The notes under the pieces are model-generated. The model saw nothing but the letters and a program-made list of their open reading frames with translations. It was not told the DNA's origin and ran no database searches. 64,000 nucleotides of DNA from Ruminococcus sp. (GTDB lineage Bacteria > Bacillota > Clostridia > Oscillospirales > Acutalibacteraceae): positions 57,453 through 121,452 of the forward strand of contig JAFTIP010000002.1 in the NCBI GenBank assembly GCA_017456845.1, written 5' to 3'. Shown piece after piece: positions 3,678 to 63,856 of this stretch; positions within the stretch are counted from its first letter, which is position 1; each line of letters starts with the position of its first letter. A program made the translations under genes and the position numbers.

Positions 3678-3683
3678 TTCAAG

Positions 3684-3712: not shown

Positions 3713-3738
3713 GGATTTTTTTAATTTTTCCAAATAAA

Positions 3739-3767
3739 TTGCATTATTGGATTTTTAGTGATATAAT
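3739..3767 (+). promoter_or_regulatory. Promoter of CPBP protease-tadA operon
   Basis: TTGCAT, a 17-bp spacer and a perfect TATAAT. Transcription should begin near 3774, downstream of the first possible ATG (3771). This supports the later start at 3789 for the following gene. Confidence 0.8.
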
Positions 3768-3788
3768 ATTATGAATTGGAGTGATTAT

Positions 3789-5275: not shown

Positions 5276-5279
5276 TAAT

Positions 5280-5313
5280 CAGCCTGTAGCTTAAAACTAC
5301 AGGCTGTTATTTT
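5280..5313. terminator. Terminator between tadA and the convergent NUDIX gene
   Basis: AGCCTGTAG and CTACAGGCT form a 9-bp stem with a 7-nt loop, followed by GTTATTTTTT on the plus strand. It closes the tadA transcript and overlaps the 3' end of the convergent NUDIX gene. Confidence 0.85.
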
Positions 5314-5764: not shown

Positions 5765-5782
5765 AATACCACCTCTAATATA

Positions 5783-5813
5783 TAAAAAAGCACCTGCTTA
5801 CAGCAAGTGCTTT
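5783..5813 (-). terminator. Terminator of tRNA-Ser
   Basis: On the minus strand AGCACTTGCT and AGCAGGTGCT pair over 10 bp (one G-U) around a 3-nt loop and are followed by TTTTTTTATA. It lies just downstream of the tRNA. Confidence 0.85.
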
Positions 5814-5815
5814 TC

Positions 5816-5908
5816 TGGCGCAGAGAAAGGGATTCGAACCCTTGGTACGGTTTTAGCCGTACACACGATTTCCAATCGTGCTCCTTCGGCCAGCTCGGAC
5901 ATCTCTGC
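5816..5908 (-). tRNA. tRNA-Ser(GGA)
   Basis: Class II tRNA with a long variable arm (TGTACGGC...CCGTACC). Acceptor arm GCAGAGA/TCTCTGC, discriminator G, encoded CCA, T-loop GGTTCGAATCC. The anticodon stem ACGATT-GGA-AATCGT gives anticodon GGA, reading UCC/UCU. Confidence 0.95.
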
Positions 5909-5925
5909 GTTTGACAACGTCAATT

Positions 5926-5954
5926 ATTATATAGCAACGAATCAAAAAAATCAA
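5926..5954 (-). promoter_or_regulatory. Promoter of tRNA-Ser
   Basis: Minus-strand TTGATT, 17-bp spacer, perfect TATAAT, 18 bases before the tRNA 5' end. Confidence 0.75.
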
Positions 5955-6049
5955 GTGTTTTTTTACATTTTTTGAAAATTTTCTTAGTTCGTCTTGCGAT
6001 TAATTGACCCGTGTCGTATAATTCCTCTTTAAAACAGCCGGGTAAAGTC

Positions 6050-14937: not shown

Positions 14938-14941
14938 GTAA

Positions 14942-14976
14942 ACACCTGAGTTAGATAAAGTACTCAGGTGTTTTTC
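14942..14976. terminator. Bidirectional terminator
   Basis: ACACCTGAGT and ACTCAGGTGT (10 bp) followed by TTTTC on the plus strand. It separates the flavoprotein operon from the convergent ClC gene. Confidence 0.85.
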
Positions 14977-14977
14977 T

Positions 14978-16579: not shown

Positions 16580-16631
16580 AATATTTCCTCGAACCTCTAA
16601 GAATATGATTATTATACCACTAATAATACAA

Positions 16632-16638
16632 ATTGCAA
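16632..16638. other. Candidate attL core ATTGCAA
   Basis: ATTGCAA occurs here, just outside the integrase terminator, and again at 60995-61001 just beyond the last phage terminator. The pair would bound a 44.4-kb prophage. Seven bases is short, although serine recombinases need only a small common core. Position is the main support. Confidence 0.35.
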
Positions 16639-16648
16639 GAATGCACAA

Positions 16649-16676
16649 AAAAACGGCAAGTCATCACTTACCGTTT
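16649..16676 (-). terminator. Terminator of the serine recombinase gene
   Basis: On the minus strand ACGGTAAGT and ACTTGCCGT (8 of 9 paired, GATG loop) are followed by TTTTTTTG. It overlaps the end of the recombinase gene and marks the left end of the prophage. Confidence 0.8.
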
Positions 16677-18184: not shown

Positions 18185-18585
18185 ACTGTTGTTGCTGCTT
18201 TCCGCAGACGGAGGCAGCCCTTTGCGTATTCTACCCAATAGGGTATAACGGCAATAATTGCCTCAAGTGGTGCATCTTTCATATCGTGAACATCAAGGGG
18301 TGATATAAAATACTGTATGCTACCAAACCGCTTACGCAGGTGCACGGTACCAATTATGCCCGCAGGGCAATTAAGGCGTATGCTGCCGCTACCCATACGC
18401 TCTGCGGTAAAATAATCAACTGAAAGGCCCTCCAGGTGCAGGCTTTCCTCCAACGCTATAAAAAACTGTTTTTCAAAATCGTTGGTTGCTGTTTCTTTTG
18501 CTGACCTCGACACAAGGGATGCCAACAGCGTGCTTGTGGGTGCGGGCATTACAACAACCTCCGGCTTTTTGCGTTTACCAAACAT
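18181..18585 (-). CDS. Unknown protein translationally coupled to the integrase
   Basis: 134 residues, no recognised domain. It is basic at the N-terminus (MFGKRKKPE) and has a mid-region with a possible beta-rich fold (GSGSIRLNCPAGIIGTVHL). AGGAGGTG precedes the ATG and its stop overlaps the integrase start, so it is made with the integrase from the lysogenic side. A role in integration control, for example as a directionality partner, is only a guess from this coupling. Confidence 0.75.
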   Translation of the reverse strand: MFGKRKKPEVVVMPAPTSTLLASLVSRSAKETATNDFEKQFFIALEESLHLEGLSVDYFTAERMGSGSIRLNCPAGIIGTVHLRKRFGSIQYFISPLDVHDMKDAPLEAIIAVIPYWVEYAKGCLRLRKAATTV

Positions 18586-18623
18586 ATATACACCTCCTGC
18601 CTCGGCTCTGCCGGGGCTTTTTT

Positions 18624-19013
18624 TTATTTTGCAAGATCGGCAGCATAGGCAAGCAGCTGTGCCTGCTTTACCACATCCAACTTGCTGAAAATCTCAAGCA
18701 GGGCAAGCTCCTGCTCGGTGAGCTTTTTCTCGGATCCGTTGATTATGGTAACAGGTGCGTGCGTATGCCCAATGATGCCGTGGTTATCCTGCACGGTTTG
18801 TACGCTTACCTCCTCATCATTGGTGAGGTATTCAACTGTAACGCCGAAATAATCAGCAATTGCCTTGATCTTATCCGGGCGGGGTTTAGATCCGTTTTTC
18901 CACCCGGTAATGGATGCCTTATTGATAGATAAGCCGGGGATCTTTTTGCTTATAGAGGATATGGAAAACCCCGCATTTTCACATAGCTCTTTGATCTTTT
19001 CATAGGTAGTCAT
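18624..19013 (-). CDS. XRE-family phage repressor
   Basis: 129 residues. N-terminal helix-turn-helix of the Cro/CI type (residues 1-65: GFSISSISKKIPGLSINKAS, then ITGWKNGSKPRPDKIKAIAD and YFGVTVEYL). The short C-terminal part lacks a LexA-type peptidase, so induction would not be by self-cleavage. GGAGGG precedes the chosen ATG; a codon 12 bases upstream overlaps that site. It is divergent from the early operon with operator-like repeats between, which fits a lysogeny repressor. Confidence 0.88.
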   Translation of the reverse strand: MTTYEKIKELCENAGFSISSISKKIPGLSINKASITGWKNGSKPRPDKIKAIADYFGVTVEYLTNDEEVSVQTVQDNHGIIGHTHAPVTIINGSEKKLTEQELALLEIFSKLDVVKQAQLLAYAADLAK

Positions 19014-44016: not shown

Positions 44017-45336
44017 ATGGCACACGGTGGCGGCACCTGGCTTACCCAAAATAAGGTAATGCCCGGTACTTATATCAATTTTACCAGTTTGGCCAGGGCT
44101 GCGGCGGCTCTTTCCGATAGAGGCCTTGCAGCAGCACCCTTTGAGCTGAATTGGGGCCCGGAGGGTACCATCTTTGAGGTAACATCCGGCGATTTCCAGA
44201 AAAACAGCAAGGCTATTTTCGGCTACGGCTACGATGCCCCGGAAATGCTTGCATTGCGTGAGATTTTCTGCCACGCAACCAAAGTTTATTGCTACCGCTT
44301 GGGTAGTGGTGGCGCAAAGGCCTCTAACACCTACGGCACCGCAAAGCACCCTGGCACCCGTGGTAATGACATTACCATTGCCATTGTGGCAAATGTTGAC
44401 CTTGAGGGCGCTTACGATGTAACCACATATATTGGTGGCTCTGCGTATGAAACCCAGACCGTTACAACGGCGGCTGATCTTGTTGATAATGACTTTGTTA
44501 TTTTCAAAAAGGATGCCCAGCTTGCTGGTACAGCAGGTATGGAAATGAAAAACGGCACCAATGCTGTTGTTTCTGGTGAGGATCACCAGGCTTTCCTTGA
44601 CAAGATCGAAAGCTACGCATTTAACGCACTCTGCTGCCCCAGCAACGATGCAACTGTTGTAAAGCTGTATGCAAAATTTGCGGAGCGTATGCGTGATGCT
44701 GTGGGCTCCAAATTCCAGCTGATCGCTTGGCAGCCGGAGGCTGACTACGAGGGCGTTATTGGCGTTTGGAATGAAACAACCCACCCCTCGATTACCACCG
44801 AAAACAAGCACACCCTTGTTTATTGGGTGGCTGGCGCACAGGCGGCGGTTGCTGTCAATAAATCGCTCACCAATTCCGTTTATGATGGTGAGCTCATTGT
44901 GGATGTGGAGTACACCCAGGCAGAGCTTGAGGCTTTCATTAAAGCCGGCAAGTTTATGTTCCACAATGTAAACGGCACGGTGCGTGTTTTGGAGGATATT
45001 AACACCCTCGTTACCCTCACGGATGAAAAGGGCGTTGATTTCCAAAGCAACCAGACCGTAAGAGTGTGCGACCAGAGCGCAAACGATATTGCGGTGCTCT
45101 TTAATACCCGTTACCTCGGACAGGTACCGAATGATGCCTCCGGGCGTGCAACGCTTTGGAATGACATTGTTAAGTATTTCCAGGAAATGGAGCGCATCCG
45201 TGCTGTTGAGGACTTTGATCCCGATGTTTTGGCGGTGGATGTGGGCGACACCAAAAAGGCTGTGCTGCTCACGCTCAACGGCCTTTCCATTGTCAATGCA
45301 ATGGGCCAGCTCTATATGAGCATTATTTTGAAGTAA
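44017..45336 (+). CDS. Tail sheath protein
   Basis: 439 residues. MPGTYINFTSLARAAAALSD at the N-terminus and the C-terminal YTQAELEAFIKAGKFMFHNV with FNTRYLGQVPNDASGRATLW are characteristic of PBSX XkdK-like contractile sheaths. It shows the phage has a myovirus-type tail. Confidence 0.93.
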   Translation: MAHGGGTWLTQNKVMPGTYINFTSLARAAAALSDRGLAAAPFELNWGPEGTIFEVTSGDFQKNSKAIFGYGYDAPEMLALREIFCHATKVYCYRLGSGGAKASNTYGTAKHPGTRGNDITIAIVANVDLEGAYDVTTYIGGSAYETQTVTTAADLVDNDFVIFKKDAQLAGTAGMEMKNGTNAVVSGEDHQAFLDKIESYAFNALCCPSNDATVVKLYAKFAERMRDAVGSKFQLIAWQPEADYEGVIGVWNETTHPSITTENKHTLVYWVAGAQAAVAVNKSLTNSVYDGELIVDVEYTQAELEAFIKAGKFMFHNVNGTVRVLEDINTLVTLTDEKGVDFQSNQTVRVCDQSANDIAVLFNTRYLGQVPNDASGRATLWNDIVKYFQEMERIRAVEDFDPDVLAVDVGDTKKAVLLTLNGLSIVNAMGQLYMSIILK

Positions 45337-50930: not shown

Positions 50931-51349
50931 TGGCTGAAATGCGATTTTTGCCGCAAACCGGTGATGATATTGACCTTATGGAGTTTGCCATTGAGGAACA
51001 GCCCAGCCACACCTACAAGCTGGATATAGACAAAGGGCGTATAAGAGGTATGACGGATGAGGCAGATGCGATGCTCCAGGCCGTTTACCTTATCCTATCC
51101 GTGGAAAGGTACCAATACCCCATATATTCCTACAACTACGGCGTGGAGCTTGCTGACCTCATAGGACAGCCCAAAGATTATGTAATGAGTGAGGCAAAGC
51201 GCCGAATTACCGAGGCCCTAACGCAGGATGATCGCATTGAGAGCGTTGACGAATGGGCTTTTGAAACCACTAAAAAATCAGTTATTGTTACCTTTACGGT
51301 GCATACGATTTTTGGCGATATTGAAACAACAAAGGAGGTGGCGGTATGA
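50930..51349 (+). CDS. DUF2634 baseplate protein (XkdS-like)
   Basis: 139 residues: IRGMTDEADAMLQAVYLILS with YQYPIYSYNYGVELADLIGQ identify DUF2634, the gp25/wedge-like protein. Overlaps both neighbours. Confidence 0.9.
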   Translation: MAEMRFLPQTGDDIDLMEFAIEEQPSHTYKLDIDKGRIRGMTDEADAMLQAVYLILSVERYQYPIYSYNYGVELADLIGQPKDYVMSEAKRRITEALTQDDRIESVDEWAFETTKKSVIVTFTVHTIFGDIETTKEVAV

Positions 51350-52575
51350 GCTTATTTGAGGATCGTACCTTTGAAAACTTGCTTGCAAGTGCACTTGCAA
51401 GGGTAAGCCCCACCCTGGATAAGAGGGAGGGCTCCCTCGTGTATAACGGCAATGCCCCGGCAATGGCAGAGCTGGCACAGTTATACATTGGCCTGGACTT
51501 TGTTTTTACGGCCACTTATATTGCCACCGCACCCCGTGAGTACCTTATTGAGCGTGCAAAGGATCGTGGTATGGCGCCCAAAGCGGCAAGTGCTGCGGTA
51601 TTCCGTGCAGAGTTTAATATTGAGGTGCCCGCAGGTGCACGCTTTTCCTGTGAGGATCTTAACTTTTATGTGGCAGAGCGTATGCCTACCGATGAGGACA
51701 CGGCAACGGGCTTGAGCCACAAGGTTATTTGCGAAACCGCCGGCACGGTTGCCAATGACTACACCGGGGCACTTATCCCCATTGAGTACATTGACGGGCT
51801 GGCATCCGCAAACCTCGTTGAGCTGCTTATCCCCGGTGATGATGAGGAAGATACGGAGGTATTTAGGCAAAGGATCCTGGATGCCCTCCAATCGCAGGCG
51901 TTTGGTGGAAACCAAGCAGATTACAAGCAAAAAGTTTTGAGCATTGATGGTGTGGCCGCCGTTAAGGTGCACCCCGTATGGAACGCCGACACCCCGCCCG
52001 CTGCCTTTATTCCCTCCGAGGCGGTGCAGGCGTGGTTTGCCGGTGGTATGGCCGGTGTAACCGACACGGCGGCAAAGGAATGGATCACAGCCATTTACAA
52101 TGCTGCCATCAATAAAAAGCTCACGGTGGGCGGCACGGTCCGCTTGGTGGTTATGGCTGCCAACAACTCTGCACCCTCGGAGCTTTTGCTTGAAACCGTA
52201 CAAACCACTATTGATCCCACGCAAAATGCCGGTGAGGGTATGGGGCTTGCCCCTATTGGCCACATCGTTAAGGTGGATGGTGTTAAGCTCCAAACCATTA
52301 ACATTACCACCAACATTGTGCTTACGGCAGGCTGGGTGTGGGCCAACGCAAAGCCCTACATTGAGGAGGTTATTGATAACTATTTCAATGAGCTTGCCGA
52401 GGCCTGGGAAAGCAGCACCAACCTGGTTGTGCGTATTTCCCAAATTGAAAGCCGTATCCTGCAAGAGTGCTCCGCTTTTGTTATGGATATATCCGGCACG
52501 CAGATCAATGGCGGCAACGCCAATATAACACTTGGTGAGGACTACATCCCCGTGCGAGGTGTTATAAATGAATGA
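51346..52575 (+). CDS. Baseplate J-like protein (XkdT)
   Basis: 409 residues. RVSPTLDKREGSLVYNGNAP at the N-terminus and PGDDEEDTEVFRQRILDALQ with GVAAVKVHPVWN in the core define baseplate J/gp47. Forms the baseplate wedge. Confidence 0.93.
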   Translation: MSLFEDRTFENLLASALARVSPTLDKREGSLVYNGNAPAMAELAQLYIGLDFVFTATYIATAPREYLIERAKDRGMAPKAASAAVFRAEFNIEVPAGARFSCEDLNFYVAERMPTDEDTATGLSHKVICETAGTVANDYTGALIPIEYIDGLASANLVELLIPGDDEEDTEVFRQRILDALQSQAFGGNQADYKQKVLSIDGVAAVKVHPVWNADTPPAAFIPSEAVQAWFAGGMAGVTDTAAKEWITAIYNAAINKKLTVGGTVRLVVMAANNSAPSELLLETVQTTIDPTQNAGEGMGLAPIGHIVKVDGVKLQTINITTNIVLTAGWVWANAKPYIEEVIDNYFNELAEAWESSTNLVVRISQIESRILQECSAFVMDISGTQINGGNANITLGEDYIPVRGVINE

Positions 52576-53188
52576 TAGAAAATTGATTGACTACCTCCCG
52601 CCCGTATTGCAGGCCGTGCTTGAGTATGTGCAGATAACTGCCGCACAGCAGCCGGAGTTTGAGCTGGCTTGGGATGCCCTTAACTTTGTTATGGATAATC
52701 AATTTATTGATACCGCAACCGAGGAGGGCGTTGCAGTATGGGAAAAGGAGCTCAACATTATCCCCCTTAATACGGAAACGCTGGAGGAGCGTAAGCAGCG
52801 TATAAAAACCGCCTGGACCTATGGCGTGGTTTATACCTATAATTGGCTGGTGAATTGGTTAAAAACCTCCTGCGGTGATACACGCCGCTTGCCCACCGTC
52901 AATGAGTACACGCTCCGGGCAGCGTTGCCCGTTTCTGTTGACTACATAAGAATTTTGGAGGATATGAGGCGGTATGTATCGGCCAATGTGCTTATAGATC
53001 CCCTCATCCTGCTTACCAAAATTGAAATGACACACTTTGCAGGTGCCGCTTTCCGGCACTCGGTGCGCCAGACAATGCAAACGCCTGCCTGGGATATGGA
53101 TAACATAAACCTTTTGACAGACGAAAACGGCATTGTGCTTATGGAGGAGGCAGGCAGCAAAATACTTTATGAGGAGGTTGTTGTATGA
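52568..53188 (+). CDS. DUF2313 baseplate protein (XkdU/YmfQ-like)
   Basis: 206 residues: LIDYLPPVLQAVLEYVQITA, then VAVWEKELNIIPLNTETLEE and RKQRIKTAWTYGVVYT define the YmfQ/DUF2313 family that follows baseplate J. Overlaps both neighbours by a few bases. Confidence 0.9.
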   Translation: MNDRKLIDYLPPVLQAVLEYVQITAAQQPEFELAWDALNFVMDNQFIDTATEEGVAVWEKELNIIPLNTETLEERKQRIKTAWTYGVVYTYNWLVNWLKTSCGDTRRLPTVNEYTLRAALPVSVDYIRILEDMRRYVSANVLIDPLILLTKIEMTHFAGAAFRHSVRQTMQTPAWDMDNINLLTDENGIVLMEEAGSKILYEEVVV

Positions 53189-54468
53189 CACCTAACTTAA
53201 CGGATGCCGGCAAAAATCTTTTGCTCCGGGCATTAACAGGTGAAACCATCACCTTTACCAAAATACAGCTTGGTAACGGTCCTGCTCAAGATGCGAAAGC
53301 GGCAACGGGGCTGGTAAACCCCCTGCTTACTGTTGAGCTTTCCAAAATCGAGGTGGGTGAGGAATATGTTACCCTTACAGCTGCATTTACCAACGGTACC
53401 GTTGTGAGTGGCTTTCATATCACGGAGGCGGGCTTTTATGCCAAGGATCCGGATGATGAAACCAAGGAGCTTTTGTATGCCCTTGGCAACGAGGATGAAA
53501 GCACAGCCGACTATGTACCGAACAATGCAAACCGCATCCTTGAAATGGAGTTTAACGCCCTGCTTTTCATAGGCGATGCGGAAAATGTGGCGGCGGCAAT
53601 TAACAGCTCCCTTGTTTATGCCTCTGCTGCTGACCTTGAGGCACACACCGGAAATATGGAAAACCCGCACGGCGTTACAAAGGAGCAGGTGGGGCTTGGT
53701 AATGTTCCCAACAAGAGCACCAACGATCAAACGCCCACCTATGAAACCGCAACCTCCTTTGCAACCCTTACCTCCGGTGAAAAGTTAAGCACCGCCTTTG
53801 GAAAAATCAAGCTGGCGATCACCAACCTTATTAGCCACATCGGTAACAGGAGCAACCCGCACGGTGTAACAGCCGCACAGGTAAATGCGGCGGCAAAGGC
53901 TCACACGCACAATGCCTCCGACATTAACGCCGGTACGGTGCCCGTTGCCCGTGGCGGTACAGGTGCAAGCTCTTTCCCCTCCGGTGCTTTGGTGCGTGGC
54001 ACGGGTGGTACCACCTTATCCTATTTAAGGGGCGTGGGTGCCTTATATTCAAAATCAACAGGTGCACCGCAGTTTGGCACGCTCCCCATTTCTATGGGCG
54101 GCACGGGCGTTACCACGCTCAACGCTTTGCTTGAGCTCGTTGCTGAAAACCTTTTCGTTACCGGTATGTATGACGGTAACAATGTGCAGGGGCGCACCAT
54201 TGATCTGGGCTTTACCCCCAAAGCCGTATTGCTTATGGATGCAGAGGGTAATACCCACGATGATATTGACGATCTGCACGGTGGCTTGGCATTGTCTGGC
54301 TACAATGTTATAAGCCGTAACGCCTCTAACACCTACACCACAACCTGGAGCAATTACTATTGCGTGCTGGGCATTGTGAGTGGCGGTTTTAGAGTGAATT
54401 ACTACACCAGCAATGAGATCCGATCCAACGAAAGCGGCCACCGCTATTATTACATCGCATTTAGATAA
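53185..54468 (+). CDS. Tail fibre protein (tail-collar N-terminus)
   Basis: 427 residues. N-terminal LTDAGKNLLLRALTGETITF is the phage tail-collar fibre domain (DUF3751). NPHGVTKEQVGLGNVPN and NPHGVTAAQVNAAAKAHTHN are shaft repeats found in fibres. VARGGTGASSFPSGALVRGT-type segments occur near the middle. The C-terminus (from about 330) is a beta-rich tip (MYDGNNVQGRTIDLGFTPKA). Probable receptor contact. Confidence 0.88.
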   Translation: MTPNLTDAGKNLLLRALTGETITFTKIQLGNGPAQDAKAATGLVNPLLTVELSKIEVGEEYVTLTAAFTNGTVVSGFHITEAGFYAKDPDDETKELLYALGNEDESTADYVPNNANRILEMEFNALLFIGDAENVAAAINSSLVYASAADLEAHTGNMENPHGVTKEQVGLGNVPNKSTNDQTPTYETATSFATLTSGEKLSTAFGKIKLAITNLISHIGNRSNPHGVTAAQVNAAAKAHTHNASDINAGTVPVARGGTGASSFPSGALVRGTGGTTLSYLRGVGALYSKSTGAPQFGTLPISMGGTGVTTLNALLELVAENLFVTGMYDGNNVQGRTIDLGFTPKAVLLMDAEGNTHDDIDDLHGGLALSGYNVISRNASNTYTTTWSNYYCVLGIVSGGFRVNYYTSNEIRSNESGHRYYYIAFR

Positions 54469-54907: not shown

Positions 54908-56689
54908 ATGGCAAATACTGTTTCGGTTGTTGAAAAACCCATCCCCGAAAAAGTAAGCAAAGAGGCTTATGTGCTTGGCATCCAGGATGATGGATCCGGC
55001 AAGCAAGCCCTTTACCGCTTGCCCCTTAATGAGGTGCGTGCAAACGGTGCAAATGACCTGTTTATTATCCCGGCTCTTATTGAGCAGTACGGCACCAAGC
55101 AGGCATTTACCGTGTTTGTAAACGCTAATGCCGAATATGACAGCCTCACAAACCTTGCTGACCGCTTTTTTAAGGCCGCTGCCTCTGCGGTTACGCAAAC
55201 CTATACCTCACAATTTTACCGCTACAACACCAGCAACACCTCCCTGGGCACCAAGATGGCTGACAATGAGGGGCTTGTTTGTACCCCCTCCACCATTGCA
55301 ACCGCTGGCCAGGATGATTATGCAGACCTCCCGCTGTTTGCCTGCTTTGATGTAAATTACACCATTGATGCAAACAGCCTTGAGCCCGTTATCCACGCCA
55401 TCAAGGGCGTTTACGGTGCATTTACTGCACAGCCGGTGGATAGCCTCGTGGGTGTTATGCAAATGACCGGCTATGTACGCCGCACCAGCGATGAAACCAC
55501 AAAAACCGTGGAATACAAGGCACAGTATGCCGAGGGCTTTATGCCTCTGCCGGAGGCTGTGCGTGCATCCGATAACGGCGTGCGTGGTTTTGTTATTCAC
55601 GCCAAGTACGCCGCAGGTTATGATGCAAACGGCTTGCTTTCCAGCGTTTCCGGTGTACAGCCCGCAACATACCGCCCCGGCTCCGAGGGCTCAACCTCGA
55701 TCAGCCACAACGGCCAAATTAACCTTTGGCGTGCAAGGGGCAACCAGTACGCAGGCTCCAGTATGTGCGATAACGCATTTATGCAGCTTATGCTTGAGAT
55801 CAAGTACGCAAACCTTGGTAACGCCGGTGTAATGAGTGGGTGTAGATATTACTACACTACCACAGCCATTGCGGCTGTGTCGGAAAGCGGCGTAAACCGC
55901 ATTGTGCTTACTGCATCCAATGCCAATTACTTTATTGTCGGCTCCCGTGTTTCCATCGGCACCGGCACAGACCGTGGCAAAGCCACCTGCTACGATGTAC
56001 ACGACATTGCCACCGTTGCAAGCATTGAGGATGTTACCATTGATGGCACAGCCTATAAGGCCGTTGTGTTAGACACAGAGGCCGTTTTCAATACGGAGGC
56101 AGGTGTGCATTACCTTGTACCGCAACCGTGGGCTACGGGCTCCACAGACGGTGTACAGGGCAACGATGGCAGCCCCACCAACAACACCAGCGGCAAGGAG
56201 CCTTTTAAGATCCAGGGCATTGAGGTAATGCTCGGTATGTACGAGGTGCTTGCCGATATTACCCTTTGCGAGGATGCAGAGGTGGGCTACACCGTTTATG
56301 CGGACCGTAAGGCGGCAGACATTGTAAGCAGCAAGGCAGGCGCCAACGCTGTTACGCTTGGCATTATTCCCAAAGAGGAGGCGGCTGCGTGGAAATACAA
56401 CGCAGAGCTTAATTGGGATGCCAACAACCAGGAAAGTTATATGATCCCCACACAGTTTGCGGGTAGCTCAACAACCGGCTACCGTTCAGCCACATACCGT
56501 GATGCTTTGGCTACCGTTGGCTGGCGTGAGTGGCTGGCCTTTGGTTATCTGAACAATGGCGGCTTCAGCGGCCTTGCTTGTGCTAATTTGTTCTATGGCC
56601 TCGGCAATGCTAGCTGGGCCGTCGGCGCCCGCCCGTGTGGATCCGGTGGCAACCGGGGTGAATTTACGCCGGCTGTGGCCGGCGTATAA
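54908..56689 (+). CDS. Diversity-generating retroelement target (putative receptor-binding tail protein)
   Basis: 593 residues with AAGGAGG upstream. No domain is recognised over most of the length; the last ~60 residues (WREWLAFGYLNNGGFSGLAC...GARPCGSGGNRGEF) look like the C-type-lectin-like fold of DGR variable proteins. The variable repeat lies in this C-terminus. Residues that differ from the template-encoded ones are L543, Y547, F553, F562, Y563, S569, A571 and V572. Position after the tail fibre suggests host-receptor binding whose specificity is diversified. Confidence 0.88.
   Translation: MANTVSVVEKPIPEKVSKEAYVLGIQDDGSGKQALYRLPLNEVRANGANDLFIIPALIEQYGTKQAFTVFVNANAEYDSLTNLADRFFKAAASAVTQTYTSQFYRYNTSNTSLGTKMADNEGLVCTPSTIATAGQDDYADLPLFACFDVNYTIDANSLEPVIHAIKGVYGAFTAQPVDSLVGVMQMTGYVRRTSDETTKTVEYKAQYAEGFMPLPEAVRASDNGVRGFVIHAKYAAGYDANGLLSSVSGVQPATYRPGSEGSTSISHNGQINLWRARGNQYAGSSMCDNAFMQLMLEIKYANLGNAGVMSGCRYYYTTTAIAAVSESGVNRIVLTASNANYFIVGSRVSIGTGTDRGKATCYDVHDIATVASIEDVTIDGTAYKAVVLDTEAVFNTEAGVHYLVPQPWATGSTDGVQGNDGSPTNNTSGKEPFKIQGIEVMLGMYEVLADITLCEDAEVGYTVYADRKAADIVSSKAGANAVTLGIIPKEEAAAWKYNAELNWDANNQESYMIPTQFAGSSTTGYRSATYRDALATVGWREWLAFGYLNNGGFSGLACANLFYGLGNASWAVGARPCGSGGNRGEFTPAVAGV
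56530..56636 (+). repeat. DGR variable repeat (VR)
   Basis: 107 bp matching the template repeat at 56751-56857 except at 12 positions, every one an adenine in the template (7 changed to T, 4 to G, 1 to C). Ends in a pure G/C run CGGCGCCCGCCC (56623-56634), the expected IMH-like element. One base beyond the aligned end, G56637 faces C56858, a non-adenine difference that would separate IMH from IMH*. Confidence 0.93.
56665..56686 (+). promoter_or_regulatory. Hairpin/cruciform just after the variable repeat
   Basis: TACGCCGGC and GCCGGCGTA form a perfect 9-bp stem with a TGTG loop, ending at the target stop codon. A stem of this size with a 4-nt loop downstream of VR is required for efficient homing in the Bordetella phage DGR. 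Confidence 0.8.
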
Positions 56690-56707
56690 GAGGGGCGGTA
56701 GCCCCTC
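56690..56707 (+). other. Second hairpin between VR and TR
   Basis: GAGGGGC and GCCCCTC form a perfect 7-bp stem with a GGTA loop. It has no following T run, so it is probably not a terminator but part of the DGR RNA or a processing site. Confidence 0.6.
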
Positions 56708-56750
56708 AATAAGGGATGTACTGTGGACCCTCGTGCCCTTTGTCCTTGCT

Positions 56751-56857
56751 GTGGCAGGCCTTTGGTAATCTGAACAATGGCGGCAACAGCGGCCTTGCTT
56801 GTGCTAATTTGAACAATGGCCTCGGCAATGCTAACTGGAACATCGGCGCCCGCCCAT
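56751..56857 (+). repeat. DGR template repeat (TR)
   Basis: Non-coding copy of the VR. 24 adenines in 107 bases; 12 differ in VR, while all 83 other bases are identical. Adenine-rich AAC/AAT codons correspond to the variable residues, as usual for a DGR template. It lies between the target and the reverse transcriptase in the same orientation. A 90-codon frame running through it from 56716 is not considered a gene. Confidence 0.93.
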
Positions 56858-56861
56858 CTGG

Positions 56862-57060
56862 TAAAAGATATTTTATTTATTACGCAGTACATTTGATGGC
56901 AACATCACGGGTGGAAACACCCGCCTCGGCTAATTACCGAAAATTGAGATGTAACCGGCACCGCTTTTGCGGCAGCGGTGGTGTATGAGGCCACCGCCGG
57001 AGGTTAGTAGAAAAACCGAAAGCCTTTGTGCTCAACCAGACGATCATAAGGAGGGATAGC
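56862..57060 (+). ncRNA. Probable 3' part of the DGR template RNA
   Basis: About 200 bases between the TR and the reverse transcriptase with no gene. It contains hairpins such as GGGTGGAAACACCC (56909-56922) and GGCACCGC...GCGGCAGCGGTG near 56957-56981. In the studied DGRs, RNA extending from TR towards the RT primes cDNA synthesis. Exact ends not determinable here. Confidence 0.5.
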
Positions 57061-58170
57061 GTGAAAACCTATTGTAAAAAGGTTGACATCACCGATCCCG
57101 ATACAATAGAGCCGTGGGTGTACCTGTGCATAACGGATCCCAAAAAGCGAAACCGCCCAGGTTTTAAGCGTTTGAGCAGCCGTTATGGCGGCGCCCACGG
57201 TATAGCGGTTGAGATCACCGAGCGTATAAAACGCCGTGATCTTGACCTGCCACCTATTCAGTATCGTAACCGGATAGACAAGAGCAGCGGAAAAGAACGC
57301 AGGCTCGGTATTGAAAGTGCTATGCAGCAATGTATGAACTATGTAGCCGTGTATGCACTTATGCCTATGTTAAAGGCAAAGGTTGGCGTGTTCCAATGTG
57401 CAAGCATCCCGGAGCGTGGCCAAATTTATGGCAAAAAGGTGCTTGAAAAGTGGATCCGCAAAGATCCCAAAGGCACTAAATACTATGACAAAATGGATGT
57501 GCGGCATTGCTTTGAAAGCATTACCTGCCGCACGATCCGTAAATTACTTGAGCGTGATATACGCAAAAACCCAACCCTCGTGTGGTTTGTCTGTGCTCTT
57601 ATCAGTACATACGAGAGTGGGCTTTCCATAGGCAGCTTTTTAAGCCAATGGCTATGTAACTATGTTATGAGTTACGCATACCATTACGCCTCGGAGCAAA
57701 TGTGCAAGGTACGCCGTGGAAAACAGCAGCACCTTATCACCCACATACTTATGTTTATGGATGATGTGATTATGTTCTCTGCATCAAAGCGGGATCTCAA
57801 ACTTGCCGCAAAGCAATTTGAGGAGTACCTATTCACGCAGCTTGGGCTTTGCATAAAGCCTAACCACCACATAAAGCTCACAGCGGAGGAGCCTCCAGAT
57901 ATGATGGGCTTTGTGGTAAGCAAGGAATGTACAACGATAAGGGCACGCACCTTTATAAAAGCACGGCGTGCCCTTATACGAGCCTGGAGGCGTATGCAGG
58001 CAGGTTTGCAAATATTCCTGCAAAACGCCCGCCGTATCGTTTCCTATAAGGGCTATTTTGTACATACCAACTCCCAAAGGGTTGCCCTTGCCCTACACCT
58101 CAAGGCGGTTTTCAAAGCCGCTACAAGGGTAATAAGTATAAATGCAAAGAGAGGACAGGTACCAGTATGA
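57061..58170 (+). CDS. DGR reverse transcriptase
   Basis: 369 residues from GTG with AAGGAGGG upstream. RT blocks: RRLGIESAMQQCMNYVAVYA, catalytic KYYDKMDVRHCFESI (D146), the DGR-type IGSFLSQWLCNY (IGxxxSQ in place of QGxxxSP; residues 190-200), FMDD at 232-235 and GFVVS near 290. It copies TR with adenine misincorporation for transfer into VR. Its stop overlaps the next ORF (ATGA), so it is embedded in the late operon. No accessory avd gene is visible nearby. Confidence 0.93.
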   Translation: MKTYCKKVDITDPDTIEPWVYLCITDPKKRNRPGFKRLSSRYGGAHGIAVEITERIKRRDLDLPPIQYRNRIDKSSGKERRLGIESAMQQCMNYVAVYALMPMLKAKVGVFQCASIPERGQIYGKKVLEKWIRKDPKGTKYYDKMDVRHCFESITCRTIRKLLERDIRKNPTLVWFVCALISTYESGLSIGSFLSQWLCNYVMSYAYHYASEQMCKVRRGKQQHLITHILMFMDDVIMFSASKRDLKLAAKQFEEYLFTQLGLCIKPNHHIKLTAEEPPDMMGFVVSKECTTIRARTFIKARRALIRAWRRMQAGLQIFLQNARRIVSYKGYFVHTNSQRVALALHLKAVFKAATRVISINAKRGQVPV

Positions 58171-58556
58171 TTGCAAAAGCGTGTTTTACAGAACGCCCGG
58201 AAAACATCAAGTATATGGTTTTACCCTCCGGGGATGCAGATCTCTGGATGCGTAAGAACATTGCCGAGGTTGTGGATCCGGAAACCAACGAGGTAAGCTA
58301 TGTGGCCGATGAGGCGTATATGCGTACCGATGCCACGGAGGCAGAAATTGCCGCCGACTTTGAGGGGTGGTTTGAAACCGCCTCGGCCTGGGAGCCTCCG
58401 GTGCCGGAAAAGAAACCGGAAACCGAAAACAAGCGTATTGTTGCCCTTGAGGAGGATGTTGCCAGCTTGAAAGCGGCAAACGCAGACCTCACCAAGCAAA
58501 ACGCTGTGCTCCAGGAGGAATTGCAGGCAACCAAAATTATTTTGGGGGTGGAGTAA
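58167..58556 (+). CDS. Tail-region protein with C-terminal coiled coil
   Basis: 129 residues. The N-terminal half (ERPENIKYMVLPSGDADLWM with VSYVADEAYMRTDATEAEIA) is common after fibre genes in Clostridia phages. A Pro/Glu linker and a leucine-zipper-like coil (VALEEDVASLKAANADLTKQ) follow. Function unknown. Confidence 0.7.
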   Translation: MIAKACFTERPENIKYMVLPSGDADLWMRKNIAEVVDPETNEVSYVADEAYMRTDATEAEIAADFEGWFETASAWEPPVPEKKPETENKRIVALEEDVASLKAANADLTKQNAVLQEELQATKIILGVE

Positions 58557-58961
58557 ATGACACTTACAGAATATGCAAGGCAGTTACGCCCCCTCATTGA
58601 AAAGGCAGCCCAAAGCCTGCCGGATGAGGATGCCCTCAACGGCGTTGCTCTGTTTCCGCATTGGGCGGTTGGTGTAGCGTACACCGCCGGCCAAAAGGTG
58701 CAGTACAACGGGGTGCTTTACACCGTTTTGCAGGCCCACACCTCACAGGAAACCTGGACACCGACAGCAGCACCCAGCTTATTTGCAAAGGTGCTCATCC
58801 CGGATCCTACGGTTATCCCCGAATGGGAACAGCCCGACAGCACAAACGGGTACAGCAAGGGTGATAAGGTTATGTACAACGGCGTTGTATATGAAAGCCT
58901 TATTGATGGCAATGTGTGGAGCCCGGAGGCTTACCCTGCTGGCTGGCAGGTTGTTGAGTAA
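58557..58961 (+). CDS. Protein with two CBM5/12-like (chitin-binding type) repeats
   Basis: 134 residues. After a helical N-terminus there are two related modules: YTAGQKVQYNGVLYTVLQAH and YSKGDKVMYNGVVYESLIDG, each with the aromatic pattern of CBM5/12 ChtBD3 domains. Likely binds surface glycans and belongs to the tail tip or lysis region. Confidence 0.75.
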   Translation: MTLTEYARQLRPLIEKAAQSLPDEDALNGVALFPHWAVGVAYTAGQKVQYNGVLYTVLQAHTSQETWTPTAAPSLFAKVLIPDPTVIPEWEQPDSTNGYSKGDKVMYNGVVYESLIDGNVWSPEAYPAGWQVVE

Positions 58962-60469: not shown

Positions 60470-60688
60470 ATGAAGAATTGGAAACAGAAATTGACCAGCA
60501 GAAAGTTTTGGGTTGCCGTTGTGGGCTTTGTTGTGCCCCTTTTGATCGCTTTTGGCGTTGCTGAAAGCGTGGCAACCGAGGTGGCATCCATTATTATGGC
60601 CGGTGCATCGGTGGTGGCTTACATCATCGGTGAGGGCCTGGTGGATGCCAGCAACGCCGGCAGCGGCGGCACCGATACGGAGGAGTAA
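60470..60688 (+). CDS. Phage holin
   Basis: 72 residues, basic N-terminus (MKNWKQKLTSRKFWVAV), two membrane segments (VAVVGFVVPLLIAFGV; ATEVASIIMAGASVVAYII) and a polar acidic tail, as in phi-LC3-type holins. Follows the endolysin; last phage gene. Confidence 0.88.
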   Translation: MKNWKQKLTSRKFWVAVVGFVVPLLIAFGVAESVATEVASIIMAGASVVAYIIGEGLVDASNAGSGGTDTEE

Positions 60689-60693
60689 AAGCC

Positions 60694-60930
60694 TCTAACA
60701 AAAGTGCGGTGCAAAATGTTTTATGCGTAAAATTGTTAGAAACATTCTAACATTTTGCGGCGTGAATTGTTAGGCGGTTTGTTTTGCGGAAAAACCAAGC
60801 TATAACAAGGTTTATTGTGCTTTTCTAACATTCTAACATTTTTTATATAATGATTATGAAATAGGAGGTTTTGAGGGTGATTTTACCGCCTAACCGCCTA
60901 ACTGCACGCTATACACGCACACGCACGAGA
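60694..60930. repeat. AT-rich iteron block, copy 2
   Basis: Non-coding. Element order matches copy 1 at 32294-32560: palindrome TGTTAGAA-ACA-TTCTAACA (60734-60752), AATTGTTAGG, a GGxxTTTTT-type run, TTTTCTAACATTCTAACATT (60821-60840), then CCGCCTAACCGCCTAACTGC and CGCACACGCACGAGA. The two copies are clearly related but diverged, 28.4 kb apart. No gene seen in the block. Confidence 0.7.
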
Positions 60931-60940
60931 GAAAGACAAA

Positions 60941-60978
60941 AACGCCCAGGAGCCTTTGCGCCCCTGGGCGTTTTTTTA
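60941..60978 (+). terminator. Terminator at the right end of the prophage
   Basis: AACGCCCAGG pairs with CCTGGGCGTT around a short GC-containing loop and is followed by TTTTTTATTT. Ends the late operon just inside the proposed attR. Confidence 0.88.
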
Positions 60979-60994
60979 TTTGGTTGGTATGCTT

Positions 60995-61001
60995 ATTGCA
61001 A
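60995..61001. other. Candidate attR core ATTGCAA
   Basis: Matches the ATTGCAA at 16632-16638. Lies between the last phage terminator and tRNA-Ala. Short match; tentative. Confidence 0.35.
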
Positions 61002-61055
61002 ACACATTACGCCACACCGCTATGGTAAGCGGTGCGGGTTCGTATGTGTGCGTTA

Positions 61056-61131
61056 TGGTGGAGACGAAGAGGTTTGAACTCTCGACCTTTCGAATGCGAA
61101 CCGACGGCTCTGCCAACTGAGCTACGTCCCC
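61056..61131 (-). tRNA. tRNA-Ala(CGC)
   Basis: Acceptor GGGGACG/CGTCTCC contains the G3-U70 pair that marks alanine tRNAs; D arm GCTCAGTTGGCAGAGC; anticodon loop TTCGCAT (anticodon CGC, reading GCG); T loop TTCAAAC; CCA encoded. The first pair of the anticodon stem (G27/A43) is mismatched, a small oddity. It lies immediately right of the prophage. Confidence 0.88.
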
Positions 61132-61163
61132 GTATATTGCGTTAATATTATGAGATAATAAAC

Positions 61164-61190
61164 AAAAAGGAGTTGACAAAAGTCAACTCC
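61164..61190 (-). terminator. Terminator of the dockerin gene
   Basis: GGAGTTGAC and GTCAACTCC (9 bp, 4-nt loop) followed on the minus strand by TTTTTG. Confidence 0.85.
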
Positions 61191-61217
61191 TAAATGTGTT
61201 TGTTTTTTAGGTGAAAA

Positions 61218-62381
61218 TTAAGCTACTGTGTAAGAAATTGTGCCTGTAGCTGCATCCCATGTGAATGTAGCTGTACCAGCAGGAACAAAAAGCTTATCAG
61301 TTGTAGCATAGTCAGTTGCGAGAACTGCACTTGTTACATCTTTGCCGAGCCAACCGTTTGTCCAGTAAATTGTACCATTCTCATCCTGAACAGCAACATA
61401 GCTCTCGGCTGTTAATGTAACTGTAACAACGCCATCTACAAAAGCGTAGCTTGTGTCATAAATGTCAGCGCTATTGATCCAGCCTACGAGATAGAAAGCA
61501 ACCTCATCAGCTGTAGCCTCATCCTTTGTAGCAGGCTCAACAGGAGTCTCTTCGTCCTTTGTTGCGGGCTCAACAGGAGTCTCTTCGTCCTTTGTAGCCT
61601 CGTCCTGTGTTGCAGGAGCAGTTACGAACTCAACAATAGCCTTCTCGCCATCGAAGCCGATGATTACTGTAGCGTTGTCAACGAGTACCTCAACCTTAGC
61701 GTTTGCACCGCCGTTAGCAGCGTTGCCCTCGAGGTTAAAGTCGGGGTTGCCCCATGCACCGTTCTCAACAACCTTGAACTCGTATGTACCTGCAGCAATA
61801 CCTGTGAAAGTAATGCTCCATGTGCCATCGCCGTCGTCAGTCATTACGTTCTGAGCGGGATCCCAGTTAACACCACAAAGACCCTCAGCACCAGCTACTG
61901 TGTAGAACTTAGCAGGCTCGTCAGCTGTTGCTTCGTCCTTTGTAGCATCCTCATCGGGAGTTGCCTCGCCGGGAGTAGACTCTTCGGGAGTTGCCTCACC
62001 GGGTGTGGACTCCTCAGGAGTTGCCTCGCCGGGTGTAGCCTCATCAGCTGTAGCCATGGGCTTGCCAATGTTCTGGTTTGCATCCTCGAACTTAGCAATC
62101 CACTTCTGGATAGCTGTAGCGTCCTTAACGTTTACATCGCCATCTTCGTAAGCGTCAGCAACTTCTACCTGAGCTTCGTCAAGAGTTGCGAGCTTAGCAA
62201 TAGCCTTCTGGATGAGAGTAGCGTCCTGGATTGTAACCTTACCGTCGAAGTTTACGTCACCTAAAATTGCTACCTGAGCCTCAGTTGTTGTCTCAGCAGC
62301 AGATGCGCAAAGACCAAAAACGGATACAGCCATAGCGAGAACCATGAGAACTGCAACGATTTTTGCGAACTGATTTTTCAT
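61218..62381 (-). CDS. Secreted dockerin protein with starch-binding-like domains
   Basis: 387 residues. Signal peptide MKNQFAKIVAVLMVLAMAVS to ...CASA. A type I dockerin follows (residues ~40-100): GDVNFDGKVTIQDATLIQKA and EDGDVNVKDATAIQKWI, two calcium-binding repeats. Then a linker of ESTPGEATPE repeats, a domain like X25 pullulanase/starch-binding modules (GLCGVNWDPAQNVMTDDGDG to VTAPA), a second linker (KDEETPVEPAT repeated), and a C-terminal beta domain FYLVGWINSADIYDTSYAFV. It would dock on a cohesin scaffold, as in the R. bromii amylosome. The start with AGGAG spacing is the second ATG. Confidence 0.85.
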   Translation of the reverse strand: MKNQFAKIVAVLMVLAMAVSVFGLCASAAETTTEAQVAILGDVNFDGKVTIQDATLIQKAIAKLATLDEAQVEVADAYEDGDVNVKDATAIQKWIAKFEDANQNIGKPMATADEATPGEATPEESTPGEATPEESTPGEATPDEDATKDEATADEPAKFYTVAGAEGLCGVNWDPAQNVMTDDGDGTWSITFTGIAAGTYEFKVVENGAWGNPDFNLEGNAANGGANAKVEVLVDNATVIIGFDGEKAIVEFVTAPATQDEATKDEETPVEPATKDEETPVEPATKDEATADEVAFYLVGWINSADIYDTSYAFVDGVVTVTLTAESYVAVQDENGTIYWTNGWLGKDVTSAVLATDYATTDKLFVPAGTATFTWDAATGTISYTVA

Positions 62382-62428
62382 AGTTTTCATCTCCTAACAT
62401 AATTTTTACAGAATAAACTGCTTGGTTT

Positions 62429-62457
62429 ATTATACTACTATAAAAACAGAAAATCAA
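62429..62457 (-). promoter_or_regulatory. Promoter of the dockerin gene
   Basis: Minus-strand TTGATT, 17-bp spacer, perfect TATAAT. The leader contains AATAAACtgcttgGTTTATT, a small hairpin. Confidence 0.75.
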
Positions 62458-62508
62458 GAGAAATATTAATATTTTTTCAAAACATTGTAGAAATATATTT
62501 TTGCTATA

Positions 62509-62536
62509 TTGCTTTTTTGTAGCAATGTGCTATAAT
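62509..62536 (+). promoter_or_regulatory. Promoter of the SecB-like gene
   Basis: TTGCTT, 16-bp spacer, perfect TATAAT, about 35 bases before the ATG. AAGGAGATG follows as ribosome site. Confidence 0.65.
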
Positions 62537-62570
62537 TTAAACAAAATTTACCTATTAAGGAGATGTTTTC

Positions 62571-62972
62571 ATGGCTTGTTGCGAGCTAAAAGCCTACACG
62601 GTTTCTGATATAAACTTTTTTAACCGACCTGCCCCCAACGTACAGATTAAAATTGGCAATAAATTCTCTTATAATGTTAAATACCCAAAGGACGGACAAG
62701 GTAACATCTGCCGAGGCGAGTTTGAGGTTGAAACAGGCGACACCTCTGATGACAAGAAGCTTAACATAAAAGTAGTTGTTGTAGGTATTTTCTCTTATGC
62801 ACCTGGCGCTACTAAAGAAATGATCCACACCGAAAGCTTCAAAATTCTTTACCCTTACGTTAAAGCTTTGGTTACAACCGTAACTGCAAATGCAGGTATA
62901 AAACCTATAATTATTCCTAATATAGATATTGATTCTCAGAATATTTATAGAATTGATGGCAGTCAGCAGTAA
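62571..62972 (+). CDS. SecB-like chaperone
   Basis: 133 residues. The second half (ESFKILYPYVKALVTTVTAN, AGIKPIIIPNIDI) closely follows the SecB C-terminal pattern FPYxRxxISxxxxxxGxPPLxLPPI, and the first half is beta-rich as in the SecB fold. SecB binds unfolded preproteins for SecA or acts in toxin-antitoxin systems; no toxin gene is adjacent. It stands alone with its own promoter. Confidence 0.65.
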   Translation: MACCELKAYTVSDINFFNRPAPNVQIKIGNKFSYNVKYPKDGQGNICRGEFEVETGDTSDDKKLNIKVVVVGIFSYAPGATKEMIHTESFKILYPYVKALVTTVTANAGIKPIIIPNIDIDSQNIYRIDGSQQ

Positions 62973-62989
62973 ATATGACATAATTTTTG

Positions 62990-63019
62990 TTGACAAATCC
63001 GTTAGCGCTATGGTCTAAT
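62990..63019 (+). promoter_or_regulatory. Promoter of tRNA-Gly
   Basis: Perfect TTGACA, 18-bp spacer, TCTAAT, 18 bases before the tRNA. Confidence 0.7.
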
Positions 63020-63037
63020 CATTGGCGTTGACGATAC

Positions 63038-63111
63038 GCGGATGTAGTTTAGTGGTAGAACTTCAGCCTTCCAAGCTGATCGTGAGGGTTCGATTCCCTT
63101 CATCCGCTCCA
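63038..63111 (+). tRNA. tRNA-Gly(TCC)
   Basis: Acceptor GCGGATG/CATCCGC, anticodon stem TCAGC/GCTGA around CTTCCAA (anticodon TCC, reading GGA), T loop GGTTCGATTCC, discriminator T, encoded CCA. Confidence 0.95.
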
Positions 63112-63117
63112 TAAAGA

Positions 63118-63150
63118 CAAGGTACCCATCAGGGTACCTTGTTTTTATTT
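63118..63150 (+). terminator. Terminator of tRNA-Gly
   Basis: CAAGGTACCC and GGGTACCTTG (10 bp, ATCA loop) followed by TTTTTATTT. Confidence 0.9.
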
Positions 63151-63156
63151 CACTTA

Positions 63157-63300
63157 GGATGAAGGGAATCGAAAGGGCGTAAAGAAAACAGTCCGGTGGA
63201 CTGTTTTTAGCCCGTGGATTTAAGCTGTTTCTTCACCACTATGCGAATTATCAAGCGATATGATGTTTTTCGCATTAACCGAAGGCACTTCATCCGCTTC
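63157..63300 (+). repeat. Structured repeat unit A
   Basis: Starts with GGATGAAGGGAATCGAAAG, whose first 17 bases are the exact reverse complement of the tRNA-Gly T-arm/acceptor 3' strand. A nested hairpin follows: outer GGGC/GCCC (63175-63178 with 63210-63213) and inner AAACAGTCC/GGACTGTTT (63186-63194 with 63198-63206) with a GGT loop. The unit ends in CTTCATCCGC, a direct copy of the tRNA 3' end. No coding frame. Confidence 0.75.
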
Positions 63301-63304
63301 GCTT

Positions 63305-63449
63305 ATGGATGGAATCGAAAGACCGTTAATAAAATGTGCCGGTGGCACATTTTTAGGTCGTGGGTTTGAGCCGACTCTTCCCTATTATGCGGATTATTTG
63401 GCGAAATCTTTGTTTATTCATATATGAGCATACTTCATCCGCTCCATAG
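63305..63449 (+). repeat. Structured repeat unit B
   Basis: Same layout as unit A: GGATGGAATCGAAAG start (4-base deletion), outer helix GACC/GGTC (63321-63324 with 63356-63359), inner helix AAATGTGCC/GGCACATTT (63332-63340 with 63344-63352), GGT loop, and an end CTTCATCCGCTCCATA copying the tRNA-Gly 3' end with CCA. Helix sequences differ from unit A by paired changes. Confidence 0.75.
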
Positions 63450-63452
63450 AAA

Positions 63453-63488
63453 ATAAAGGTATCCTGTAAAGGGTACCTTTATTTTTTA
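63453..63488 (+). terminator. Terminator after repeat unit B
   Basis: ATAAAGGTATCC and GGGTACCTTTAT (12 bp, one G-U, 6-nt loop) followed by TTTTTATA. Same style as the tRNA-Gly terminator and following the same CATCCGCTCCAT sequence, so tRNA end plus terminator seem duplicated. Confidence 0.85.
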
Positions 63489-63499
63489 TATAAACGTTA

Positions 63500-63590
63500 G
63501 ATGAAGGGAATCGAAAGACCGTTAGAAAACAGTACGGTGGACTGTTTCTTAACGCTTCTCACCCTCTCAGGGTTCGAATCCCACATTGAT
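63500..63590 (+). repeat. Structured repeat unit C (degenerate)
   Basis: GATGAAGGGAATCGAAAGACC start, inner helix AAACAGTAC/GGACTGTTT with one mismatch and the same GGT loop; the outer helix is lost. It runs into GGGTTCGAATCCC, a T-arm-like sequence (63570-63582), perhaps the remnant of another tRNA. Confidence 0.6.
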
Positions 63591-63593
63591 ATA

Positions 63594-63624
63594 AAAATAG
63601 CCCGTACTTTCGTGCGGGCTATTT
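63594..63624 (-). terminator. Terminator of tRNA-Gln
   Basis: Minus strand AAATAGCCCGCAC and GTACGGGCTATTT (one G/A change tolerated as wobble-like) followed by TTATA. Ends the leftward tRNA-Gln transcript. Confidence 0.8.
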
Positions 63625-63700
63625 TGGCTGGGCTGGCGGGATTCGAACCCACGGGATGACGGAGTCAAAGTCCGTTGCCTTACCGCGTGGCTACAGCCCA
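63625..63700 (-). tRNA. tRNA-Gln(TTG)
   Basis: Acceptor TGGGCTG/CAGCCCA with U at position 1 as in glutamine tRNAs, anticodon stem ACGGA/TCCGT around CTTTGAC (anticodon TTG), T loop GGTTCGAATCC, discriminator G, encoded CCA. Confidence 0.95.
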
Positions 63701-63752
63701 ATATTCAATTTGCTAATTTATACTACCATAATACCTAAGAAAAATCAAGTAT

Positions 63753-63781
63753 AAAAGCCTCCGAAAAACTCGGAGGCTTTT
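63753..63781 (-). terminator. Terminator of the Lys-His-Arg tRNA transcript
   Basis: AAAAGCCTCCGA and TCGGAGGCTTTT, 12-bp stem with a short A-rich loop, and T residues on the minus strand. Confidence 0.85.
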
Positions 63782-63856
63782 GGTGATCCATCGGAGATTC
63801 GAACTCCGGACACCTTGATTAAAAGTCAAGTGCTCTGCCAACTGAGCTAATGGATC
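63781..63856 (-). tRNA. tRNA-Lys(TTT)
   Basis: Acceptor GATCCAT/ATGGATC, D arm GCTCAGTTGGCAGAGC, anticodon stem CTTGA/TCAAG around CTTTTAA (anticodon TTT), discriminator A, encoded CCA. Confidence 0.95.

Follow-up and report, generated by a model that had tools for sequence, protein, structure and literature searches.

An apparently intact diversity-generating retroelement in a Ruminococcus prophage, with likely intron-split and rewritten templates among its relatives

We analyzed a stretch of 64,000 nucleotides from a Ruminococcus sp. assembly, probably a gut clostridial genome (GCA_017456845.1, contig JAFTIP010000002.1, positions 57,453–121,452; hereafter the window, with positions counted from its first base). 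Judging from the sequence, we are highly confident that the window harbors an intact and probably working diversity-generating retroelement (DGR) belonging to a contractile-tailed prophage. It is a DGR of the classical, ordinary and well-supported kind, without a recognizable Avd protein nearby. Among its relatives, we consider it likely that a natural intron devoid of open reading frames (ORFs) interrupts the template repeat (TR) in three contigs (L011, L012 and L023), that spliced RNA is copied there, and that the intron could gate diversification; apart from that, complementary DNA (cDNA) would have homed into the TR of one contig at least (L078), leaving a rewritten template. No sign of an intron or of rewriting is seen in the window's own TR.

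The core of the element is a pair of repeats, namely the TR and a variable repeat (VR) at the 3' end of the target gene (Table 1). An earlier note on this DNA had reported that the two differ only at template adenines and, upon recounting, its coordinates and counts held: along 107 bases, mismatches occur at 12 of the 24 template adenines (seven changes to T, four to G and one to C) and at none of the 83 other bases. The first base past this run (56637) is a non-adenine mismatch. Over 111 bases, finding 12 of 13 mismatches at adenines has a hypergeometric P of 8e-9. In a control scan of the whole window (offsets 60–5999, one strand, longest run per offset, each base in turn as the permitted mismatch), the best run with mismatches only at A contained 83 non-A bases, and the runner-up 22. 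The score did not exceed 20 when C or G was taken as the template base; it was 55 for T, because seven of the changes are A-to-T and the same TR/VR pair was being seen from the VR side. Neither further TR nor further VR copies were found in the source assembly (93% complete), where each is single-copy.

Target, VR, TR and reverse transcriptase (RT) all lie on the + strand, in agreement with the single direction originally noted. The codon comparison of VR and TR also bore out that the substitutions alter eight residues, one codon being changed synonymously; counting the TR codons with a non-synonymous adenine, up to 13 residues near the C-terminus of the target are open to variation. Of the 12 differences, two may be fixed and not of recent origin, which would bring the fresh sites nearer to 10. 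At one of them (TR A56856, VR G56635), the A/G difference recurs in all the relatives whose run reaches it (L002, L004, L005–L007, L009 and L014), while in L003 and L008 the TR has T and the VR G; at the other (TR A56756), the VR is non-A in 7/7 loci having A there.

Close relatives of the element were present on eight IMG/VR contigs (L002–L009, one of them partial), with RTs 78–93% identical over the best segment, and in a Clostridia metagenome-assembled genome (MAG) from goat caecum (L014), apparently the same contig as in G225, a genome from the window's family and another genus. The order target–TR–RT is common to the close relatives. L006 and L007 were dropped as identical to L005, leaving eight distinct TR/VR pairs, whose 102-base cores were set by motif. 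In these, 109 of 178 template adenines differ, as against 3 of 638 other template bases (Fisher P 5e-83), and the three non-adenine differences belong to L003 (one) and L009 (two). A spread of sister-VR differences over non-adenine positions, which the earlier note had named as grounds for rejecting a DGR, is not what these counts show, and they favor a DGR.

The VRs of these relatives also carry the imprint of their own templates. Twenty-three TR columns vary among loci without involving any A, and at 21 of them every one of the eight loci has a VR that matches its own TR; taken pairwise, the VR follows its own TR at such columns in 233 of 239 cases. When the window is compared with L014, the VR has diverged by 22.9%, the target upstream of the VR by 5–10%, the TR by 6.5%, the VR–TR interval by 1.8% and the RT by 8.4%. 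At 19 of the 24 VR differences between the two there is a template adenine, and the other five are the TRs' own non-A differences. Since the VRs mirror their own TRs, and given this pattern, information has flowed from TR to VR since the lineages parted.

The RT matches RVT_1 (E = 1.3e-10) and phrog_1423 (E = 1.9e-54). The latter is annotated only as 'Reverse transcriptase', and the assignment to the DGR class was set by the IGSFLSQ block together with a profile comparison against PDB, in which 8ub7, which we take to be a Bordetella phage DGR RT, was the best of seven matches (E = 9.8e-13). Both the IGSFLSQ block and the FMDD active site (57754–57765) announced in the earlier note are intact. 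An open RT reading frame with FMDD is found in the window as well as in six aligned close relatives (L002, L003, L004, L005, L008 and L014); the L011 clade has YMDD. The start codon is most likely the GTG at 57061, judging from its context, and not the codon at 57028. This is the single RVT_1 gene in the source assembly. Taken together, the adenine-only differences, the adjoining RT and the counts in eight pairs uphold the description of a complete DGR with adenine-directed mutagenesis.

We assign the 3' end of the VR, by analogy, as resembling an initiation of mutagenic homing (IMH) site: it is GC-rich, and the VR has G at the distinguishing position in the relatives too. Two hairpins follow in tandem, the first just before the stop codon of the target, 28 bp after the VR, and the second directly after the stop codon, 53 bp after the VR. 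Across the eight loci, two of the nine pairs of hairpin 1 are changed on both sides, with no breaks, while hairpin 2 has an invariant stem and keeps its GGTA loop in six. For phage DGR hairpins, the available text of PMC3240598 gives a loop consensus GRNA and a distance of 4–34 bp after the VR; the loop of hairpin 2 agrees with this consensus, but its distance falls outside the published range. In the spacer between TR and RT, the predicted closing helix is kept in 8/8 loci, one of its six pairs being compensated in two of them. Of the 26 pairs predicted for the whole spacer RNA, six show a compensated change and eight are broken in at least one locus.

If the element works as these features suggest, an RNA spanning the TR and the structured spacer would be made, and the RT would copy it into cDNA, misincorporating at template adenines, a step to which the adenine-only differences point indirectly. 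The cDNA would then replace the VR, with the GC-rich IMH-like end and the hairpins behind it as guides, as in the BPP-1 phage. Non-adenine changes of the TR would reach the VR unaltered, as they have done in the relatives. The outcome would be a set of varied residues near the C-terminal end of a virion protein, presumably a receptor-binding tip, whose gene comes right behind that of the tail fiber.

Table 1. Positions of the DGR components and of associated features (window coordinates, unless a contig is named).
Feature	Position	Strand	Remarks
DGR target gene	54908-56689	+	593 aa, VR at 3' end; phrog_17147 E=1.9e-109, phrog_5302 E=2.3e-12
Variable repeat (VR)	56530-56636	+	codons 542-576 of 593, 3' end of target ORF
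IMH-like VR end (by analogy)	56624-56640	+	GGCGCCCGCCC, then G vs A in TR
Hairpin 1	56665-56686	+	9-bp stem TACGCCGGC/GCCGGCGTA, 4-nt loop
Hairpin 2	56690-56707	+	7-bp stem GAGGGGC/GCCCCTC, loop GGTA
Template repeat (TR)	56751-56857	+	AAY-rich codons, uninterrupted, 221 bases downstream of VR
Spacer RNA region, TR-RT	56857-57060	+	UCUGGU (56857-56862) can pair with ACCAGA (57035-57040)
DGR reverse transcriptase	57061-58170	+	369 aa, GTG start (most likely) behind AAGGAGG; RVT_1, phrog_1423, 8ub7
TR with intron, relatives	L011:5474-5776, L012:5474-5776, L023:1611-1907		VR continuous
Tail fiber gene, upstream of target	53185-54468	+	phrog_7037 'tail fiber protein' E=1e-31
Baseplate wedge subunit	51346-52575	+	phrog_6 E=1.3e-50
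Tail sheath	44017-45336	+	phrog_279 E=1.9e-118
Serine recombinase	16664-18238	-	

Several results weigh against this reading, and they concern the target, the RT and the accessory protein. The C-type-lectin fold that the earlier note had proposed for the variable domain was not confirmed: the target gave no Pfam match above cut-off and no relevant match among PDB sequences (a single irrelevant one, E 0.57), and the AlphaFold model obtained from eight sequences, with a mean predicted local distance difference test (pLDDT) score of 34, was too poor for a fold search. As to the RT, it has FMDD in place of YMDD, and it is also matched, more weakly, by RT models of the CRISPR, retron and DRT (defense-associated reverse transcriptase) types, both those of PADLOC and the curated ones of NCBIfam, the latter under their cut-offs. 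Finally, no Avd match was found by Pfam and PHROG in a scan of eight proteins, which took in the RT and the target, nor did PF22296 match anything in the source assembly, and Avd is described as essential in BPP-1 in the available part of PMC12875486.

Elsewhere in the genome there may be a four-helix protein, because a match to PF05635, below the cut-off of that model (E 1.2e-6), is cut short by the end of contig C55. To our knowledge, an accessory protein (Avd or a substitute) is common but not universal in DGRs, so we did not use the absence of Avd to exclude a DGR. A 129-aa gene at 58167–58556 overlaps the stop codon of the RT and has only a weak PHROG match, of unknown function; it is a candidate RT partner in place of Avd.

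Receptor binding by the target, and hence a switching of host range or tropism, is suggested by gene order and by analogy with known phage DGRs. The protein has relatives in the seven other loci, with 69–93% amino acid identity in the alignment, and of its two PHROG matches phrog_17147 is of unknown function. The diversified protein might instead serve something other than host recognition, such as virion decoration, binding of gut mucus or sugars, or a function on the lysogen surface. This alternative, which we rate as unlikely but well worth keeping in mind, would accord with the absence of fold and receptor support for the target and with the CBM_5_12 protein encoded nearby (58557–58961); it fits less well with the location of the target directly after the tail fiber and baseplate genes and with its other PHROG match, phrog_5302, a 'tail protein'.

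Much less probable, in our view, is that the DGR died recently and that the adenine-only differences are a fossil of an element now inactive, perhaps because it is missing an accessory protein. Prophages can decay, and no recognizable Avd is found nearby; but conservation extends over RT, TR, hairpins and spacer, which are all intact, all the non-A bases among the 107 of the window VR still match the TR, a VR was written in the lineage of the window or of L014 after they parted, and the close relatives retain the gene order described above. As for a plain duplication without any retroelement, whose adenine differences would be due to chance or selection, duplications do occur, but we give this explanation practically no credence in view of the P value for the window, of the adjoining RT with 8ub7 as its nearest solved relative, and of the counts in eight pairs, which refute it.

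We return, then, to the relatives of what we take to be a working DGR. Distant ones, whose RTs are ~39–43% identical to that of the window, include the three contigs with a split TR. The insert lies after TR position 64, at the same place in all three, and is 193 nt long in L011 and L012 and 187 nt in L023. In a permissive Rfam search of 23 loci on 22 contigs, only these three matched the group I intron family RF00028; the matches were full-length, with 37.2 bits (E 4e-6) for L011 and L012 and 21.6 bits (E 0.29) for L023, all below the gathering score of 50. At that score, the window had no RF00028 match.

The insert has other attributes of a group I intron. P1 places a U.G pair at the 5' splice site (GGU/AA, with the slash at the site, pairs with UUGCC), P3 and P7 form, and the last base is G. 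Between L011 and L023, nine compensatory double changes keep pairs in P2, P3, P5a, P6a and P9, while the L023 insert fails to form one pair each in P5, P9 and P8 (the last owing to a gap); P4 as modeled is off-register, with two bad pairs in L011 and L023 alike. The ends were set by group I rules, since the sequence alone allows a 2-base shift. With short flanks, the L011 insert folds at a z of -4.3 relative to shuffles. Every forward frame of the insert contains a stop, so it is ORF-less.

Once the insert is removed, the TR differs from the VR at 16, 16 and 15 positions in L011, L012 and L023, respectively, all of them adenines but one in L023; self-splicing is likely, given a VR that is adenine-mutated yet intron-free. 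L011 and L012, which according to their contig names come from different metagenomes, share an identical TR plus insert of 303 nt. Between their VRs there are 13 differences, every one at a template adenine, five upstream and eight downstream of the junction, and the rest of the 5.3 kb compared shows 26 differences. Because the VRs differ at adenines on both sides while TR and intron are identical, VR writing continued with the intron present, and retrohoming in these two elements apparently used spliced RNA. An alternative would be that L011 and L012 each gained the same intron recently and independently. Standing as it does between transcription and diversification, the intron could gate the latter.

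In the RT tree, L023 is placed beside the intron-less L024, and L011/L012 beside the intron-less L022, meaning that the intron comes and goes; three changes of intron state are needed when L010, whose contig begins at the end of the TR, is scored as intron-less. By hand count, 92 contigs were examined, 73 of which have a detected adenine-only TR/VR pair, and the intron is present in three of these 73. Among the 19 without a pair, 13 have the RT within 800 bases of the upstream edge of the contig, and L078 is counted there because its TR itself changed. A junction-pattern scan for introns at the same site returned 14 stretches, i.e., the three known contigs and 11 without an intron core, and further pattern scans of IMG/VR revealed no additional TR intron. 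A search for L011-type RTs among 391 genomes of the class, at E<=1e-60, gave a match in the window's own genome and nowhere else. L040 (contig 3300030497_000094, ~3374–3499, reverse complement) contains a related core of a group I intron, with 80% identity along 128 bases, in an apparent coding region; no DGR RT was found in that locus by tblastn.

Other relatives have templates that seem to have been rewritten. L077 and L078 show no difference outside TR and VR over a stretch of 3,100 bases, whereas their TRs (L078:2687-2796 versus L077:2687-2796) differ at 13 positions, all of them adenines of L077's TR, and their VRs at 17. Similarly, the L002 TR (L002:1752-1862) differs from that of the window at 7 of 111 positions, all adenines, located between positions 77 and 92, and across this changed stretch it equals its own VR. 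All three contigs are metagenome assemblies. Both the L078 and the L002 TR look like products of cDNA homing into the TR or of VR-to-TR conversion. In L050 (2436–2791), an RT relative is preceded by a pair of repeats 88% identical whose mismatches also fall on bases other than A; this is possibly another eroded template.

The DGR of the window resembles that of BPP-1 (mtd/avd/TR/brt) in having a target with a 3' VR, a TR and an RT in one direction, and adenine-only differences. The likeness extends to a GC-rich 3' end with an IMH/IMH*-like difference, to a GC-rich hairpin with a GRNA loop after the VR, and to a structured spacer RNA between TR and RT, as far as these are described in the available parts of PMC3240598 and PMC12875486. 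Unlike BPP-1, the window has no Avd that we could find, an FMDD rather than a YMDD motif, and two tandem hairpins, the one with the GRNA loop being the more distant from the VR. The target also matches seven phage records, all human-faecal (27–39% identity), five of which (MT836575, MT835485, MT839517, MT835469 and MT835477) have an RT match as well (29–38%); RT and target are all <40% identical to the window's. Faecalibacterium prophage DGRs also have RT, TR and VR (PMC11792537, in the part available). In FP_Epona, the RT is 27% identical and one stretch is 74% identical to 87 bases of the window TR; none of the Faecalibacterium phages matched the target at E<=1e-5.

A self-splicing intron was reportedly engineered into the TR of BPP-1 by Guo et al. 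in 2008. The contigs L011, L012 and L023 are alike in having an intron in the TR and an intron-free VR, hence an RNA intermediate, but here the intron is natural and is found in IMG/VR contigs. The literature that we searched, mostly without subscription papers, yielded no report of an intron in a DGR TR, and none is mentioned in the available parts of PMC9610469, PMC10136315 and PMC8987985; provisionally, we regard the natural TR intron as new. Such an intron serves as an internal test for the RNA intermediate, and likewise for a possible limitation of diversification by splicing. The rewritten templates, for their part, bear on the premise that the TR remains unchanged (stated in the accessible portion of PMC3240598). 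The window itself adds a further conserved DGR without a recognizable Avd, in a temperate phage of probably gut clostridia, and together with its sister in the goat-caecum MAG it should be useful for comparing the rules that hairpins and spacer RNA follow.

The contractile-tailed prophage proposed originally is borne out by the PHROG matches of sheath and baseplate. Upstream of the target are genes for terminase, portal, head proteins, tail sheath, tape measure, baseplate and tail fiber, and downstream of the DGR is an amidase endolysin; because sheath, baseplate, terminase and recombinase modules are all there, the designation holds. A serine recombinase would leave short att cores, and in a search for attachment sites no repeat of >=14 bases was shared between 14501–18900 and 60601–63800. 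The small CBM_5_12 protein (a carbohydrate-binding module, E 5.6e-21) is encoded between the RT and the lysis genes. Just past the latter, where the prophage presumably ends on the right, lies a tRNA-Ala (CGC) at 61056–61131.

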